Made by a program: the position numbers and the translations under genes. 64,000 bases of DNA from the NCBI RefSeq assembly GCF_001953305.1, contig NZ_MTFE01000010.1, forward strand, positions 3,620,252 to 3,684,251, in the 5' to 3' direction. Numbering within the stretch: position 1 is the first letter of the stretch; every line of letters starts with the position of its first letter. This DNA comes from Cnuella takakiae (GTDB lineage Bacteria > Bacteroidota > Bacteroidia > Chitinophagales > Chitinophagaceae). The notes beneath the pieces were generated by a model, which was not told the DNA's origin, did no database searches, and worked only from the letters and a program-made list of their open reading frames with translations. Below, piece by piece: positions 3,530 to 46,260 of this stretch.

Positions 3530-6500
3530 TTACCGGGGATTAAACCGGATACTTGTTACCGCAGGTTCGTGCCGTTCGCCGGCTTTGGCGGAGCGGGCAA
3601 CAATATACAGGGTATGCATCTTGTTGTCGGTAACAGGTTGAATATCTACCTTGATACCGGCGCCACCACCAGTGGCACTGGTGGGCAGTCCGCCGGCAAG
3701 GGCACCGCTACCAATCTGCTTACCATCAGGTGCATCCAGCCTTACTTCGAAAGCATAGCCATAGAGCGGCGCCTTGCCCCAGTTCAGGTTAATGTCCAGG
3801 CTGCCGATACCCGACAGGTCGATATTGTTGAATGCAAACCAACCACTGCCCTTGGGGAAGATGAGCAACTGGTTGCCGCCATTGTCCATCAGGTTAAAGC
3901 CCTGGGTTTTGGCTACCGCACCCATACCAACCGTATTGCTGCGCAGCGCAATGCCGCTATGACTTTCCAAAGGCCTGATGCCATTGCTACCCTTATCGGT
4001 ATAAGATGCAGAGATCACCAGCATGCCATTGTCTTTGGCAGGCTTGCCCAGGGTGGCAGGTACCGTGCCATTTGCAGGCAGTGATTTGTTCAGGGCACTA
4101 CCACCGGAAAGAGAGAGGATATAGGCAACAATTTGCCTTGCATCAGTTGGCTTCAGGTTGGGGTGCGCCGGCATCGCCGTTTCGCCCCATACACCTGCGC
4201 CGCCCCTGATAATTTTATTTACCAGGTGGTTTACGGCGCCGCCATCTTTTTGGTATTTCTGCGATACCGCTGTATAGGCAGGACCTACAGATTTTTCTTC
4301 CAGCTTGTGGCAGGCTTTACAATCCAGCGACTGCACCAGGTTCTTACCCATCATAGCTTCGGTGAGCACCTGATGGCCCATGTTGGCGCCAGCCTTATCG
4401 GTGCCTTCTACATAGTCGGCCGAAACAAGCAAGGCATCGGGTGCAGCCTGGCTGCCGTCTTCCTTATCAGTATAGGTAACTGCATATGCCACCGGCTTGC
4501 CGGGGAAGTAAAAGGTCTTATTGCCAGTAACTGTTACGTTGATATCCGGTGCGGCATTGCCGGCAAAAACAGGAACGGTTTCACTCTGGGTTTTGGAGCC
4601 ATCCTTGTCCTGCACGGTTACACTCAGGGCGTACTCTCCTGCCTTGTCGAAGTTGTGCTCCAGGCGGGGCTCGCTGGTTTCTTTGGTCTGGCCATTGCCG
4701 AGATTCCAGATGTATTTCAGTTCTTTTTGCTCGGGGTCTTTGGCATCAACGGTAGCCACTACTTTCAACGGCAGCGCTCCCGATGTGCGGTCCACTTTGA
4801 TACCGGCTACTTTGGGTGCCAGATTGCCGCTGTTATAGTCGATGCGTGAAAGGGCAGCATCGGGATTCTTGCTAAACCAACCACTTCCATACTCCAACAG
4901 GTACAGTTTACCATCGGGACCCACTTCCATGTCAATGAGTGCATTGAACTTGGTGTTACCCATAAAAGGTTCCATTTTGTCAAAATCGCCATTCTCCTTC
5001 ATGGTTACCGCTTTGATCCAGCCGCGGATCCAGTCGTAGATCAAGAGCTTGCCATCGTAGTAATCAGGCAGACGGGTTTCTTTGGGGAACATGCTGGTAT
5101 AATACACTGGCCCAGCCATGGCATTGCGGCCGCCAGTGGCAACCTGCGGAAACTCCTTGGAGGCAGCATATGGGTACCAGATGAAAGGCGGCGCTACAGG
5201 GGGCAGTTCCTTGATACCGGTGTTGTTGCGCGAATTGTTAATCGGTTTATTGGGATCAAAAGCAGCACCCGTGGCACCTGTTTCGTAATTGTACTCGTGG
5301 TAAGGATAGTTGTTTCCTACAAAAAGGGGCCAGCCAAAGAAGCCTGCCTTGCGTGCCTGGTTCAGTTCGTCGTAACCACGCGGACCTCGGGTATCCAAAC
5401 TATCTGCGGCTGCATCTGGGCCTACTTCACCCCAATACAGGAAACCGTTCTTCTGGTCTACCGAAATGCGGTAGGGGTTCCGGTTGCCTTGTACATAGAT
5501 TTCGGGGCGGGTGCCGGCAGTGCCCTTAGGATAGAGGTTGCCTTCAGGAATTTCATACGATCCGTCTTCCTTGACACGGATGCGCAAAATTTTACCGCGC
5601 AAGTCATTGGCATTACCCGATGTGCGGCGGGCATCGTACTGCTCGTGGCCCGGAGCATCATTCAAAGGCGCATAGCCATGGTTCACATATTGCTGTCCTT
5701 TTTCATCAAAGGGTGTTGAGTTATCGCCGGTAGAGAGGTACAGCAAACCTTCGTTATCAAAAGCAATGGAGCCGCCGGTATGACAGCAGATTTCGCGTTG
5801 CGAATACAACTGCAAAACAACCTGCTCGGATTGCATATCCAGTTTGTCGTTAACAAACTTAAACCGCGACAGGCGGTTCACCGAAGTATCGGCAGGCGAA
5901 TAATAAATGTATACGTAGTTGTTCTTGCTGAAATTGGGATCCGCTTTCAAACCCAGCACGCCTTCTTCGGCATTTACTCCTGGCGTATTAAGGGTTTTAA
6001 AATACACATTCAGGAAGCCTGCCTGCTTCATGGCGGAATCACCATTTTTATACAAAAGGATCTCACCACGGCGCTGGGCTACCAGGATGTCAAGGTTGGG
6101 CAACACGGTCATTTCCGTAGGCTCATAAAACTGGCCACCGGCAAGCATCGTTTTGTTGAAGCGCTCTTCTTCGGGTACCTTGGCGGTGCGTGCCTTATCG
6201 AAGTTGAGTTCCTTATTGTCGCCAACAGCGTATTTGATGCCACCTGAAATATGCTTCAGCACTACCGGATCGCTAAAAGACTCGTTGGTATGACCCAGGT
6301 TGGTATACCAGGCACGGCCACCGTCATAGTCATGGTACCATGCCATGGGGTGGTTGCCGTTCATATAGCCACCCTTAAAGGAAGCTTCATCCACGGTGAG
6401 CAGCACGTTAACGGTGCTGTCCATCTTTTTAAAAGAATAAAATTCATCGGTGTGGTTAAACTTGGCGGGCATGTCTTTCATACCGGGACCGTCTTTTTGC

Positions 6501-35678: not shown

Positions 35679-37334
35679 ATGAGCAAAATCTTAAAAGCAA
35701 CCTTACCGTTGCTGTTGGCAGCAGCAGCAAATGCCCAAACACGGCAGGATACCATCAACCTCATTCAGCAAACTGCTGCTTACAGCGACCTGCAGTTCAC
35801 AAGGGCTGAGGCCGATTCAATGGTCGAGAGTATCCGGGAGTTTCATGATGCCTACCGCAACTTCCATGGCAGGCTGGCCACCAACAGCATTCCTTACCCT
35901 TTTGCGTTCAACCCGGCACCGGCAGGTTTTACCCTGCCCAAAAACCAGGTCAAGAAAAACATTCCGCTGCCATCGGCCGTTTCATTACCTGCCAATAAAG
36001 AAGACCTCGCCTTCTACTCGGTTGCGCAATTGGCTTCCCTGGTAAAAAGCAAGAAGATCAGCTCCGTTGCGCTGACCCAGTTTTTTCTCAACAGGTTGAA
36101 AAAGCACAACGACTCGCTGCAGTGTGTCATTTCCTTTACCGAAGACATTGCCATGGAACAGGCCCGCAAGGCCGATGCGGAACTGGCAAAAGGCATGTAT
36201 CGCGGGCCCTTGCATGGTATACCTTATGGCCTGAAAGATTTGCTTGCGGTAAAAGGCACCAAAACAACCTGGGGTTCCACCCCCTACAAAGACCAGGTGA
36301 TCGATGACAATGCTTTTGTATACGAGCAACTCACCAAGGCAGGTGCGGTACTCTGTGCCAAGCTTTCGTTAGGTGCGCTTGCCTTCAACGACCTGTGGTT
36401 TGGCGGCCGCACTAAAAACCCCTGGAACCTCCGCCAGGGCTCCAGCGGCTCGTCGGCGGGTTCGGCATCGGCAACAGCCGCCGGACTGCTGCCTTTTGCC
36501 ATAGGTACCGAAACCTGGGGCTCCATTGTATCGCCCTCGGCACGTTGCGGCGCTACAGGCTTGCGCCCCACCTTTGGTGCCGTTAGCCGCAGTGGCGCCA
36601 TGGTGCTTTGCTGGAGCCTCGATAAAGTTGGCCCCATCTGCCGCAGTGCCGAAGATTGTGCCCTTGTGTTTGATGCCCTGCATGGTACGGATAACGAAGA
36701 TCCTTCGGCAGTTGACTATGCTTTCAACTATGCCGCTGCCAAGCCGGTATCTGCACTGCGCATTGCTTACGCCGCCAACTACTTTGAGAAATTGCCAAAG
36801 GATGCCGCTGAATGGAAGGCCCTGGAAGTATTTAAGAAGATCAATCCCAATATTAAAGCCGTCACCTTTCCTGATACAGCGTTCTTCCCCGGCGATATTA
36901 TGAATATCGTGCTCACAGCTGAATCGGCGGCAGCTTTTGATGAACTGACCCGCACTGGCCGTGATGAGTTGGTCGAGCGGCAGGACAAAGGTTTCTGGCC
37001 CAATATCTTCAGGGCGGGCCGCACCATTCCTGCTGCAGAATACATTAACGCCAACCGCTTCCGTTCGGAACTGATTCGTGTGACCAATGATTTTATGAAG
37101 CAGTACGACGTAGTGATCGTTCCCTCATTCATGGGTAATCAATCTGCAATCACCAACCTCACCGGTCATCCTGTAGTTGTTTTCCCAATAGGATTTTCGC
37201 AAAACGGCAGCCCCTTAAGCTTATCGCTTGTGGGCAACCTGTACGACGAAGCTTCTATTCTGCAAGCAGCCAAAGCTTTTCAGGACAAAACAGAGTGGAA
37301 TAAAAAACACCCGCCGATGTTTGTGGGTAAATAA
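35679..37334 (+). CDS. Secreted amidase (amidase signature family)
   Basis: 551 residues with a short signal peptide (MSKILKATLPLLLAAAANAQ). Amidase-signature elements: the catalytic Lys186 in HGIPYGLKDLLAV, the Gly/Ser-rich block QGSSGSSAGSASATAAGLL (about 253-271, holding the cis-Ser) and the nucleophile Ser282 in GTETWGSI. In most relatives this last motif is GT(D/E)TGGSI, so Trp replaces the first Gly of the GG pair here; the Ser is kept. It hydrolyses a carboxamide in the periplasm. The gene is 91 bases after the GCS2 ligase and on the same strand, so an operon is possible. It is not a GatA, given its export signal and no GatB or GatC partners. Confidence 0.9.
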   Translation: MSKILKATLPLLLAAAANAQTRQDTINLIQQTAAYSDLQFTRAEADSMVESIREFHDAYRNFHGRLATNSIPYPFAFNPAPAGFTLPKNQVKKNIPLPSAVSLPANKEDLAFYSVAQLASLVKSKKISSVALTQFFLNRLKKHNDSLQCVISFTEDIAMEQARKADAELAKGMYRGPLHGIPYGLKDLLAVKGTKTTWGSTPYKDQVIDDNAFVYEQLTKAGAVLCAKLSLGALAFNDLWFGGRTKNPWNLRQGSSGSSAGSASATAAGLLPFAIGTETWGSIVSPSARCGATGLRPTFGAVSRSGAMVLCWSLDKVGPICRSAEDCALVFDALHGTDNEDPSAVDYAFNYAAAKPVSALRIAYAANYFEKLPKDAAEWKALEVFKKINPNIKAVTFPDTAFFPGDIMNIVLTAESAAAFDELTRTGRDELVERQDKGFWPNIFRAGRTIPAAEYINANRFRSELIRVTNDFMKQYDVVIVPSFMGNQSAITNLTGHPVVVFPIGFSQNGSPLSLSLVGNLYDEASILQAAKAFQDKTEWNKKHPPMFVGK

Positions 37335-37387
37335 GTCCCTGCGTTTCGAGGGTTGCCCCTTTTACAAAGCGGGCAACCTTCCACAAC

Positions 37388-37456
37388 CTCCCCCTTTGTA
37401 AAAGGGGGCGACCTTTAACAGCTTTCTAGATTAGGGTTCGGGGGATTTTCCTCCAC
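37388..37456. repeat. Left arm of long inverted repeat around the DUF559 gene
   Basis: Begins CTCCCCCTTTGTAAAAG and ends GGGTTCGGGGGATTTTCCTC. It pairs with 38066-38133: the outer 28 bases match at about 26 positions and the inner 24 at about 23, while the middle is diverged. It begins about 50 bases after the amidase stop. Confidence 0.85.
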
Positions 37457-37583
37457 CTCCGGCCACTTAAACCAACTCCAACAGCTAACTCATGTCAGGT
37501 TGGGGGATTTCCCCCAACCTCCAATCCCTCCCCTTGCTTTAGCCCCACTCTTTTTTTATTTTCTTGGGAGCAAATACCCTCCC

Positions 37584-37996
37584 ATGCTCCCCTACGACCC
37601 AGCCAACCGCTCCTATAGCCGCGATCTCAGCAACCACTCCACCTTCGGCGAAATCACCCTCTGGCAGCAACTGAAATCCCGCCAATTACGCGGATACCAA
37701 TTCTACCGCCAAAAGCCTTTAGACTGGTACATCGCGGACTGCTACTGCCCGGCACTCAAGCTTTTGATTGAGCTGGACGGCTTATATCACGAGGCTCCTG
37801 AAATACAAGCCAAAGACCAACGCAAGGAAAAAATTTACCTGCAATGGGTTTGCAGGTATTAAGGTTTACGGAAAAGGAAGCACAATACGATACAGAAGAA
37901 GTGATTAAAAAACTTAATACCTGGATCGATGATTATGAGCGAACACACCCGGAGGTAGTTGGGAAAAATGTGCGCAAAATGCGGGGAGGCGGTTGA
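37584..37996 (+). pseudogene. Frameshifted DUF559 (Vsr/endonuclease-like) gene
   Basis: Reading from ATG 37584 gives MLPYDPANRSYSRDLSNHST, then TLWQQLKSRQLRGYQFYRQKPLDWYI and the catalytic-type IELDGLYHEAPE, all typical of DUF559 endonuclease-domain proteins (restriction-endonuclease-like fold, related to very-short-patch repair enzymes). The frame then fails at an A6 run (37828-37833). Adding one A restores KDQRKEKNLPAMGLQVLRFT and runs to a TGA at 37994, a normal 137-residue length. So a single-base deletion, a recoding site or a sequence error splits the gene. It sits wholly inside a long inverted repeat and overlaps the open frame of the amidohydrolase at its end. Confidence 0.8.
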
Positions 37997-38021
37997 GGGA
38001 GTTGGTGCATCTTTGCGGGCT

Positions 38022-39785
38022 ATGAAATGGAGGAAATATTTGGAGATAAAGATACTTCCTGTTTTGGGAGGAAAATCCCCCGAACCCGATAGCAGTGAGG
38101 GGCTGCAGGTCGCCCCCTTTTTCACAGGGGGAGGCCACCTAAGCAAAGAGGGAAACCACTTAAGCAAAGTCCTTGCGGCATTGATCATTGGCTTAGCTTC
38201 TTGTAACACCAAAACAGCAGCCGACCTCTTTGTTTATAATGCTACCATCTATACTGTAGACAGCGCCTTCAGCAAGGCGGAGGCCATGGTGATAAAAGAT
38301 GGTAAAGTCCTCGCTACCGGCACCAGGGCTGACTTGGAAAAATCTTATGATAGCAAAGAGCAACTGGATGCCAAAGGCCAGTACATATACCCCGGTTTTA
38401 TTGATGCACACGCGCATTTCTACCGCTATGGGCTCGGCTTGCAAACCGCCGACCTGGTGGGCACCGAAAGTTGGGAAGCCATTCTGCAAAAGCTGCAGTC
38501 ATTTGCCCAAACCAATCCAGACGGCTGGCTGCTGGGCCGCGGCTGGGACCAAAACGACTGGCCCGAAAAAACTTTCCCAACCAAAGAAAAGCTGGATCAA
38601 CTTTTTCCCGATAGGCCCGTACTCCTTACCCGCGTAGATGGCCACGCGGCCATTGCCAATCAGAAAGCATTGGATGCGGCAGGCATAAAGGCTGGCATGC
38701 AACTGACCGGTGGCGATGTGGTTACGGAAGGTGGAAAATTGACGGGTTTGCTGATTGATAATGCCGTGGACCTGGTAGGCGCCAAGGTACCACCGGCAAC
38801 GCCAACACAAATAGCCAAAGCACTGGACCTTGCACAAAACAATTGTTTTGCCATGGGCCTGACCACAGTGGATGATTGCGGGCTGGATTATACCGAAGTG
38901 CAAACCATCGACAGCCTGCAGCAAAAAGGCGAACTCAAGATGCGTGTTTATGCCATGCTTAGCGATGCCGCCCGCAACTATGATTTCCTATTTGCCAAAG
39001 GCCCAATCAAAACCGATTTCCTGAATGTGCGTTCCTTTAAGGTTTATGCCGATGGCGCACTGGGTTCCCGTGGTGCCTGCCTGCTGCAGCCTTACACCGA
39101 TAAACCCAACTGGACCGGCTTCCTCTTATCGCCGCAAAACCATTTCGACTCGGTTGCCCGTATCATTTACAACAAAGGTTTCCAGATGTGTACCCATGCC
39201 ATCGGCGACTCGGGCAACCGCGTGGTGCTGGATATTTATGCCCGTTACCTGAAAGGCAAAAACGACCTGCGCTGGCGCATCGAACACGCACAGGTGGTGA
39301 GCCCGCAGGACTTTGCTACATTCGGTGCCTATGGCATCGTGCCTTCCGTTCAGCCTACACATGCCACTTCCGATATGTACTGGGCGCAGGAGCGCCTTGG
39401 AAAAGAAAGAGAAAAGGGCGCTTATGCTTTTAAGCAGCTGATGCAGCAAAACGGATGGATACCGCTGGGTACCGATTTCCCGGTCGAAGACATCTCTCCT
39501 TTCAAAACCTTTATCGCTTCTGTTTTCAGGCAGGATGCCAAGGGTTGGCCTTCAGGCGGCTACCAACCCAAAAATGGGCTTTCCCGTGAAGAAACCCTAA
39601 AGGGCATGACCATTTGGGCTGCCAAAAGCAATTTTGAAGAAAGGGAAAAAGGCAGCCTCGAAAAAGGCAAACTTGCCGACTTCATCATCCTGGACAAGGA
39701 CCTGATGCAAGCCAGCCTGCAACAAGTGCTCAGCACCAAAGTACACGGCACCTTTATTGGTGGTAAAAAAGTGTTTGGAAGATAA
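38022..39785 (+). CDS. Amidohydrolase (YtcJ-like), 5' end disrupted or start uncertain
   Basis: The amidohydrolase core covers about 520 residues: metal motif GFIDAHAHFYRYG, GWLLGRGWDQNDWP, SFKVYADGALGSRGA, MCTHAIGDSGNR, RIEHAQVV and GTDFPVE, as in YtcJ-type metal-dependent hydrolases that act on amide or N-formyl bonds. A lipoprotein signal LSKVLAALIIGLASC is visible, with the lipid-accepting Cys codon at 38202-38204, but no ATG, GTG or TTG lies just before it. The frame stays open back through the inverted-repeat arm to ATGs at 38022 and 37959 inside the DUF559 tail. I suggest the element's insertion replaced the native start; 38022 is only the nearest in-frame ATG. Function may be impaired. 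Confidence 0.75.
   Translation: MKWRKYLEIKILPVLGGKSPEPDSSEGLQVAPFFTGGGHLSKEGNHLSKVLAALIIGLASCNTKTAADLFVYNATIYTVDSAFSKAEAMVIKDGKVLATGTRADLEKSYDSKEQLDAKGQYIYPGFIDAHAHFYRYGLGLQTADLVGTESWEAILQKLQSFAQTNPDGWLLGRGWDQNDWPEKTFPTKEKLDQLFPDRPVLLTRVDGHAAIANQKALDAAGIKAGMQLTGGDVVTEGGKLTGLLIDNAVDLVGAKVPPATPTQIAKALDLAQNNCFAMGLTTVDDCGLDYTEVQTIDSLQQKGELKMRVYAMLSDAARNYDFLFAKGPIKTDFLNVRSFKVYADGALGSRGACLLQPYTDKPNWTGFLLSPQNHFDSVARIIYNKGFQMCTHAIGDSGNRVVLDIYARYLKGKNDLRWRIEHAQVVSPQDFATFGAYGIVPSVQPTHATSDMYWAQERLGKEREKGAYAFKQLMQQNGWIPLGTDFPVEDISPFKTFIASVFRQDAKGWPSGGYQPKNGLSREETLKGMTIWAAKSNFEEREKGSLEKGKLADFIILDKDLMQASLQQVLSTKVHGTFIGGKKVFGR
38066..38133. repeat. Right arm of long inverted repeat around the DUF559 gene
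   Basis: Begins GGGAGGAAAATCCCCCGAAC and ends TCACAGGGGGAGG, the reverse complement of the arm at 37388-37456. Directly after it comes a direct repeat of CCAC(C/T)TAAGCAAAG (38136-38148 and 38157-38169). It lies within the apparent 5' end of the amidohydrolase frame. Confidence 0.85.
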
Positions 39786-39790
39786 ATGAT

Positions 39791-39925
39791 GAACCACAAA
39801 GACAGGAAGAAACGAAGTAGCACAAAGGGGTTTTGCCATTTGCTAACAAAACCTAGCTCCAGATTAGCCCCTCAAATCATGGCCTTTCTTTGTGCCTACT
39901 TTACTCCATCCTGTCTTTGTGGTTC
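39791..39925. repeat. Inverted repeat with CACAAAG arms
   Basis: Left arm 39791-39828 (GAACCACAAAGACAGGA...GTAGCACAAAGG) and right arm 39884-39925, its reverse complement with a few changes. The outer 17 bases pair perfectly. The loop is about 55 bases. It occupies most of the gap between the amidohydrolase and the glutamine amidotransferase. Confidence 0.85.
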
Positions 39926-39949
39926 AAAAACCTGCAACCCATAACTTTG
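39916..39949 (+). promoter_or_regulatory. Promoter TTTG-N22-TAACTTTG for glutamine amidotransferase gene
   Basis: TTTG at 39916-39919 and an exact TAnnTTTG (TAACTTTG) at 39942-39949, spaced by 22 bases, which fits the Bacteroidota sigma-ABfr consensus. The -7 box ends seven bases before ATG 39957. The TTTG box is part of the right arm of the inverted repeat. Confidence 0.65.
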
Positions 39950-46020: not shown

Positions 46021-46070
46021 TACCCCCTGTCCCCCTAAAGGGGGAACTTAGGTCAAATAATCTTTAGCAT

Positions 46071-46110
46071 GCATAAAGCCACTCTGTTTGAGTGGCTTTA
46101 TGCATTTATA
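46071..46110 (+). terminator. queA terminator
   Basis: Perfect 14-bp stem GCATAAAGCCACTC / GAGTGGCTTTATGC with loop TGTTT, followed by ATTTAT. Confidence 0.8.
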
Positions 46111-46162
46111 CCCAACATTTATTTAACTCCTCTATTTTAATTGCATTTAGGAAATGAAACAT

Positions 46163-46191
46163 GAAAGCCACCCAGTAACTGAGTGGCTTTC
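46163..46191 (-). terminator. lysC terminator hairpin
   Basis: Stem GAAAGCCACCCAGT / ACTGAGTGGCTTTC, one mismatch, tiny loop. On the plus side CTTTAT follows; on the minus side it lies 70 bases after the lysC stop. Its core AAAGCCAC...GTGGCTTT matches the queA terminator, as if duplicated. Confidence 0.6.
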
Positions 46192-46260
46192 TTTATAGGA
46201 AGATAGCTTCGGCCTAAGTTCCCCCCTTTAGGGGGACAGGGGGTGTGCCGGGGGATGAGG

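Follow-up and report, generated by a model that had tools for sequence, protein, structure and literature searches.

In a 64,000-nucleotide (nt) stretch of the Cnuella takakiae genome (contig NZ_MTFE01000010.1, positions 3,620,252 to 3,684,251; hereafter the window), a DUF559 nuclease gene lies between two long inverted arms, and we have compared this element with relatives in other genomes. The arms and the nuclease probably constitute a mobile unit that has derivatives resembling miniature inverted-repeat transposable elements (MITEs) and no known transposase, with copying of a repair type; we place the probability of this reading at about 65%. The element in the window is best read as a decayed copy of such a small mobile element. 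In its general form, the unit would comprise one DUF559 gene (Vsr/EDxHD fold) between two inverted arms, each typically a short tag followed by a palindrome, in the manner of repetitive extragenic palindromes (REPs). An arm-nuclease unit, scatter over unrelated sites, nuclease-less satellites and tolerance in frame within host genes are all supported by the sequence comparisons described below.

The window element comprises the following features.
37356 to 37407 (37356-37373 pairing with 37390-37407), no strand assigned: left double palindrome, a REP-like hairpin outside and overlapping the left arm; inverted pair of 18 nt, 94%.
37387 to 37454, plus strand: left arm of the inverted repeat; 68 nt long, with 79% complementarity to its partner on the right.
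37500 to 37862, plus strand: open reading frame (ORF) of the DUF559 nuclease, N-terminal part, likely ATG at 37584 (PF04480, E 1.3e-18).
37850 to 37996 (approximate), plus strand: probable C-terminal DUF559 remnant in another frame, identified by eye against the family consensus.
38067 to 38134, minus strand: right arm of the inverted repeat, pairing with the left arm and holding a hairpin.
38123 to 38164, plus strand: imperfect tandem duplication (21 nt, 76% identity) at the element's right end.

A previous interpretation made from the letters of the window alone (the sequence-only reading) had described reverse-complementary arms, well matched at their ends and diverged in the middle, around a single DUF559 gene. 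The arms were confirmed and refined to the 68-nt pair listed above, with 26/28 and 21/21 matches at the ends; they are spaced 612 nt apart and form the longest inverted repeat detected across the window. As single-stranded DNA, the segment 37356-37410, which takes in both left palindromes together, folds at -14.8 kcal/mol (z -4.3), while the right-arm hairpin at 38104-38140 folds more weakly (-8 kcal/mol, z -2.05). The gene content stood in part. The DUF559 ORF is the only ORF recognised between the arms, with no transposase in the element, and it matches PF04480 with 67.2 bits against a curated cut-off of 20.6, covering positions 4-77 of the 109-position profile within a single frame. The gene is broken by a frameshift: the ORF stops early at 37862, and what seems to be the C-terminal remainder of the domain is read in a different frame, at about 37850-37996. 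The nuclease motif D..ExD..H was found in the window copy by pattern search.

The site of the element can be compared with its empty counterpart in relatives. The two genes that flank it are as follows.
35679 to 37334, plus strand: upstream ORF from the ORF list, which we take to be an amidase, forming the left flank of the empty site and neighbouring the amidohydrolase in 11 relatives.
38172 to 39785, plus strand: amidohydrolase (PF07969), its own start lost at the right end of the element by comparison with 11 empty junctions.

Amidohydrolase loci were fetched from 20 of the 48 genomes with a match, and the upstream amidase was found in 14 of these, the window's locus included. In 11 of the 14 genomes the two genes are adjacent and the junction is empty, the first matched codon following the amidase stop by 89-147 nt; the same distance is 901 nt in the window and 702 nt in a relative, G007, with a DUF559 element in each. 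The amidohydrolase of the 11 empty relatives starts no more than about 70 nt past the amidase stop, at ATG in ten and GTG in one as judged by eye. This normal start is gone from the window, as the sequence-only reading had suspected, and the in-frame ATGs upstream of the window's gene (38022 and 37968) both fall within the element. In a nuclease tree, the junction elements of the window and G007 are nearest each other (support 98/85, with a truncated window row on a long branch), and their shared junction may reflect either one old insertion that was kept or two hits on the same site. The junction of another relative, G011 (L136), has a spacing of 564 nt and is filled by about 450 base pairs (bp) of imperfect repeats that include TTGCTTGG..CCAAGCAA palindromes, unlike a DUF559 element. 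A further inverted repeat of the window, with 31-nt arms spaced 75 nt apart (39790-39926), comes directly after the amidohydrolase gene.

Inverted arms are a frequent feature of DUF559 genes. We searched the C. takakiae genome and 57 relatives for the domain, which has a match in 30 of the 58 genomes, and used 64 of the 83 resulting rows for an arm test; the 19 left out were G030:C2:65698 and 18 rows with E >= 5e-8. Many of these are C-terminal matches in large ORFs, such as L004 of C. takakiae itself (G000:C1:3362829-3363083), a weak match in an ORF of 1574 amino acids (aa) that has its like in large ORFs of several relatives and represents a different protein class. The test took the best inverted match between the 350 nt on either side of the domain, with a threshold score of 14. 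By this measure, arms flank 43 of the 64 copies, compared with 0/320 Markov shuffles and 0/118 shifted windows; flanks mispaired from different copies match in 27/377 cases because arm families are shared. A second set, comprising the best 80 of 564 loci by protein similarity, all Bacteroidota by title, included two loci too short for the test and gave arms in 59 of 78 testable copies (controls 1/234 and 2/140). The expectation that other DUF559 genes would carry such arm pairs is thus borne out in both sets.

The common arm reads CCTCACCCC-NN-CCCCTCTCC-loop-GGAGAGGGGAG and comes back in inverted form at the other side. CCTCACC or a near form occurs in both arms of 33 of the 102 pairs over threshold, and the other arms differ strongly; a generic pattern, CACCCC..CCCTCTCC..GGAGAGGG, gave just 6 matches over the 58 genomes and was too strict. 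Outside the Bacteroidota, 13 of 60 plasmid records were fetched and 12 non-Bacteroidota records entered the arm test, of which seven reach 14 and four reach 22. The scores are 104 in S. meliloti, 61.5 in Pseudanabaena, 56 in Deinococcus and 22 in Sphingomonas, followed by 17 and 14.5 in two Picosynechococcus and 14 in Azospirillum. The armed gene lies between transhydrogenase subunit genes in Sphingomonas (L292) and between paaD and paaZ in Deinococcus (L293). On a plasmid of Synechocystis sp. B12 (L291), a DUF559 ORF with hairpins on both sides stands directly before, or possibly inside, the PglX methyltransferase gene of a bacteriophage exclusion (BREX) system.

Arm and nuclease also vary together. 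Among the 102 elements over threshold, the similarity of arms and that of nucleases are correlated for cross-genome pairs (Spearman 0.346, 0/999 permutations) and within the genus (Spearman 0.337, 0/999 permutations). The proposal that the nuclease and its inverted-repeat frame act as a unit is supported by this covariation, which at the level of sequence shows joint descent of the two, short of proof that the nuclease reads the arms.

The same arms occur without a nuclease. A second DUF559 element of the C. takakiae genome, L002, has arms ACCCCCTGTCCCCCT..AGGGGGAACTTAGG, termed type A, and this arm has 109 genomic copies at <=3 mismatches versus a single match to the reversed pattern; these counts concern the L002 arm, as distinct from that of the window element. 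We fetched 40 inverted type-A pairs, representing 80 of the 109 arms. One is a DUF559 element of 501 bp, and 38 are nuclease-less and 144-332 bp long, of which 32 share interior sequence with another pair (E 1e-3); many interiors contain a hairpin. One of the 38 is found in the window.
46022 to 46244, no strand assigned: nuclease-less MITE-like element of the L002 arm type, 223 bp, with a 23-nt perfect inverted pair.
It is sited between two genes and has the near-perfect arms ACCCCCTGTCCCCCTAAAGGGGGAACTTAGG. The sequence-only reading had held that arms occurring widely without a nuclease gene would make their link to DUF559 coincidental. Such arms do occur widely, yet as MITE-like pairs of the same arms, which fits non-autonomous derivatives. 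Of the 14 genus members that have DUF559 (E <=1e-10), 13 carry at least four type-A arms, whereas none of the four that lack it do (Fisher 0.0016). The target duplication that the same reading had raised was not found: the 40 type-A pairs show no clear excess, the best being 4/40 for one 3-mer offset among many tried.

More than half of the copies sit in open frames that run through host genes. Copies were counted as in frame if their ORF extends for >=100 aa ahead of the domain and >=60 aa beyond it; 75 of 144 qualify, comprising 18 of the 64 relatives' copies and 57 of the 80 in the similarity-ranked set. The domain's own frame stays open for 300 nt on both sides in 75 of 135 testable copies, and no other sense or antisense frame does so; the test sees surviving open frames alone and gene-breaking insertions escape it, so that "always in frame" applies to the survivors found. 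Hosts were named from Pfam matches in one or two representative ORFs of each flank cluster. They include leucyl-, isoleucyl-, valyl- and methionyl-tRNA synthetases (LeuRS, IleRS, ValRS, MetRS), MetH, a UvrD-like helicase, Lhr and RecQ-like helicases, UvrA, tryptophan dioxygenase, an M23 peptidase, GH31, IspG/GcpE, MeaB/methylmalonyl-CoA mutase, adenine deaminase, a DegT aminotransferase, MazG and an ABC protein, which we take to be of the ABC-F kind; the host ORF of L054 received no name from the Pfam scan.

LeuRS provides the most detailed view of these sites. Its loci were fetched from 30 of the 57 genomes with a match, and the DNA of 17 loci was compared. Site 1 is empty in 20 of the 30 loci, nuclease-bearing in five, arm-only in two and not called in three; the corresponding counts for site 2 are 22 empty, two with a nuclease, two arm-only or with an arm remnant and four not called. 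At the DNA level, four of the five nuclease inserts at site 1 start with CCTCA and all five finish with TGAGG, and the insert at site 2 replaces about 13-15 host nt. Both insertion sites fall in variable linkers, not in conserved codons. The arms are translated in the host frames, for example as LTPNPSPKERG and GEGLGVR. In one genome, G029, a LeuRS ORF of 1315 aa (L076, contig C90) has two different DUF559 domains at the two sites; it is the only close LeuRS match of that genome, and the fused enzyme is therefore presumably functional.

The tree of the 75 in-frame nucleases requires at least 31 host-site changes for 22 labels, where 21 is the minimum, on a short alignment with many unresolved forks. 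Starred pairs in this tree bring together unrelated hosts: RecQ, UvrD and Lhr are each paired with LeuRS, and GH31 with ABC-F. By our own pattern, the D..ExD..H motif is intact in 140 of 144 copies (75/75 in frame, 65/69 others); four copies that are not in frame have stops in the domain, and the window frameshift lies outside this count. Ratios of non-synonymous to synonymous substitution rates (dN/dS) were 0.06-0.13 in nine of 16 pairs, six being saturated and one without synonymous change. Eight of these nine pairs come from in-frame copies, several have dS > 1 and one copy, L219, was used twice; selection on the fused host protein could be part of the cause of the low values. For the S. 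meliloti element, one of 150 plasmid records covers >=80% of the query, and no clean empty site was obtained among them.

We take EDxHD to be the label for the fold of DUF559 and I-Bth0305I nucleases. A structural model of DUF559 (predicted local distance difference test score, pLDDT, 82.9) matches 3hrl, the homing endonuclease I-Bth0305I (3r3p) and Vsr (1cw0), and sequence searches agree for the first two. I-Bth0305I has the same fold (TMq 0.69, probability 1.00) and sequence similarity at E 8.3e-7; unlike it, the DUF559 elements have inverted arms, MITE derivatives and LeuRS sites in variable linkers, and no intron or intein host was seen. A Vsr-like fold is common to the DUF559 nucleases and to Vsr and VsrA; the gene described here differs in the repeats at its borders and in the scatter of its relatives across many sites. 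According to the accessible part of one report, VsrA of Caulobacter has a DUF559 domain, and the Caulobacter DUF559 protein is required for a DNA-damage response (PMC12907096).

The closest likeness in architecture may be drawn with REPtrons, in which REPs or REPINs accompany a REP-associated tyrosine transposase (RAYT, TnpA-REP): both have tagged hairpins in inverted pairs, many copies and one flanked enzyme gene. The accessible portions of two papers describe REPs also within coding genes (PMC3733652) and subclasses of RAYT (PMC6006769). In contrast to REPtrons, the enzyme here is a DUF559 nuclease of the Vsr/EDxHD fold, with no HUH tyrosine transposase between the window's arms, and the GTAG tag of REPtrons is present in both arms of just 5/102 DUF559 arm pairs. 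CGTC REPs, which include Rickettsia palindromic elements, are likewise palindromic and found inside genes, and are described in the available text as having no dedicated transposase (PMC3733652); CGTC occurs in both arms of just 3/102 DUF559 pairs. The nuclease-less pairs resemble MITEs in having 31-bp terminal inverted repeats, lengths of 144-332 bp, no nuclease and shared interiors in 32/38. Unlike insertion sequences and MITEs of the DDE type, they show no target duplication, and their partner would apparently be a nuclease, not a DDE transposase. We found no account of such an armed DUF559 element in the literature searched, a coverage from which subscription journals are mostly absent.

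We infer that movement follows a repair- or homing-like route without a transposase, as the sequence-only reading had proposed. The nuclease would cut or nick either the arms or the target, or DNA close by, and the repair or replication machinery of the cell would then copy the element in. The missing target duplications and the replaced host bases fit break repair better than DDE transposition, short of proof. An insertion within a gene would survive only where it leaves the host frame open, and the host protein, LeuRS for example, would then tolerate the nuclease as an added domain.

Alternatively, DUF559 could be cargo, with arms and MITEs moved by another enzyme of the cell, either a RAYT or an unlinked transposase. 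We regard this as unlikely, if still to be taken seriously. MITE pairs far outnumber nuclease copies, one type-A pair holds a different ORF, and RAYT/Y1 genes are common in the genus, with a weak association with the arms: across 18 genus members, arms are present in 11/13 with Y1 at E 1e-10 and in 2/5 without it, a poorer fit than that of DUF559 (Fisher 0.099; 0.044 at the looser threshold given below). Yet two armed genomes with DUF559, G015 (26 arms) and G011 (34 arms; 62% complete), have no Y1 match at E 1e-10, and G013 and G002 have Y1 with neither arms nor DUF559. No arm core was present in the 2-kilobase (kb) stretch around either RAYT of C. takakiae, the nearest listed type-A arms being 3.2 and 40.7 kb off, and the nuclease keeps recurring inside arms of very different sequence. 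A homing element, in which the nuclease would cleave the empty allele at one fixed position and recombination would then copy it in, with the arms playing a secondary part, is a poorer prospect that we consider improbable. It would draw on the fold in common with I-Bth0305I, on identical LeuRS and MetH sites that are filled in many loci and on the related elements at the amidase junction of two species, but it accords badly with LeuRS sites in variable linkers rather than conserved codons, with sister nucleases occupying unrelated genes and with nuclease-less pairs dispersed over the genome.

Two further explanations seem far less probable still. That these are ordinary cellular repair genes of Vsr type, standing by chance beside GC-rich terminators or REP hairpins, is a thought prompted by Caulobacter VsrA, which has the domain and for which the accessible text proposes a repair role (PMC12907096). 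We give it very little weight: the symmetrical arms lie far over shuffled and shifted controls, the element is present or absent at junctions, copies stand in open frames through many unrelated genes, and a conserved, single, syntenic position across relatives was not seen. The poorest of all, a nuclease-carrying intein or self-splicing intron that is spliced out of the host protein or RNA, would account for a domain like that of homing nucleases in frame within essential genes, but is scarcely credible here. No intein family or Hint domain was among the Pfam hits (E <=1e-5) of 28 loci, not all of them among the 75, no intron family lay over the element in 10 loci, and an intron would not need the frame that is open on both sides in 75 copies. 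One locus, L222, has a group II intron match at 3601-3675, about 1.2 kb away from its element.

Several observations weigh against a mobile unit of nuclease and arms. Movement was not seen directly, nor did the comparisons capture an insertion at strain level. Forty of the 142 testable DUF559 copies have no arm pair over threshold, and one of the 43 scored as armed, L036, is a longer repeat array and not a REP pair. Beyond the Bacteroidota, five of the 12 records score below 14, including another Sinorhizobium and a Synechocystis with hairpins visible by eye, and a DUF559-bearing E. coli record, with a score of 9, has no arm pair over threshold. Four of 48 shifted windows in the non-Bacteroidota loci reach 14, one of them at 32, and therefore just the four highest scores there are convincing. 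The type-A arms of the MITE-like element at 46022-46244 are no more stable in folding than shuffled sequences (z -0.12 and 0.13), and a 591-bp type-A pair (L173, G000:C1:1476491-1477281) contains an unrelated ORF of 106 aa, perhaps a small membrane protein, so that DUF559 could likewise be cargo. G004 has DUF559 without type-A arms, and at E 1e-3 the gap between the two candidate partners narrows, with arms in 13/15 genomes with DUF559 and 0/3 without (0.012) and in 12/14 with Y1 and 1/4 without (0.044). The accessible part of the Caulobacter work proposes a role in mismatch repair for its DUF559 protein (PMC12907096).

A wider claim would follow from the mobile arm-nuclease unit: that DUF559 proteins are the missing dedicated enzymes of a large, cross-phylum group of non-RAYT palindromic repeats, which would make up a new class of mobile element with nuclease-triggered copying, MITE satellites and in-frame, unspliced insertion into essential genes. 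We advance it tentatively, at slightly worse than even odds. If it is true, DUF559, a widespread domain of unknown function, would gain a role, and REP-like repeats would gain a new kind of enzyme partner; for CGTC REPs, the available text names no known moving enzyme (PMC3733652). The sole close LeuRS of G029, with its in-frame and apparently intact nucleases, is an odd case of tolerated domain insertion, and protein annotations may contain further DUF559 inserts of this kind.

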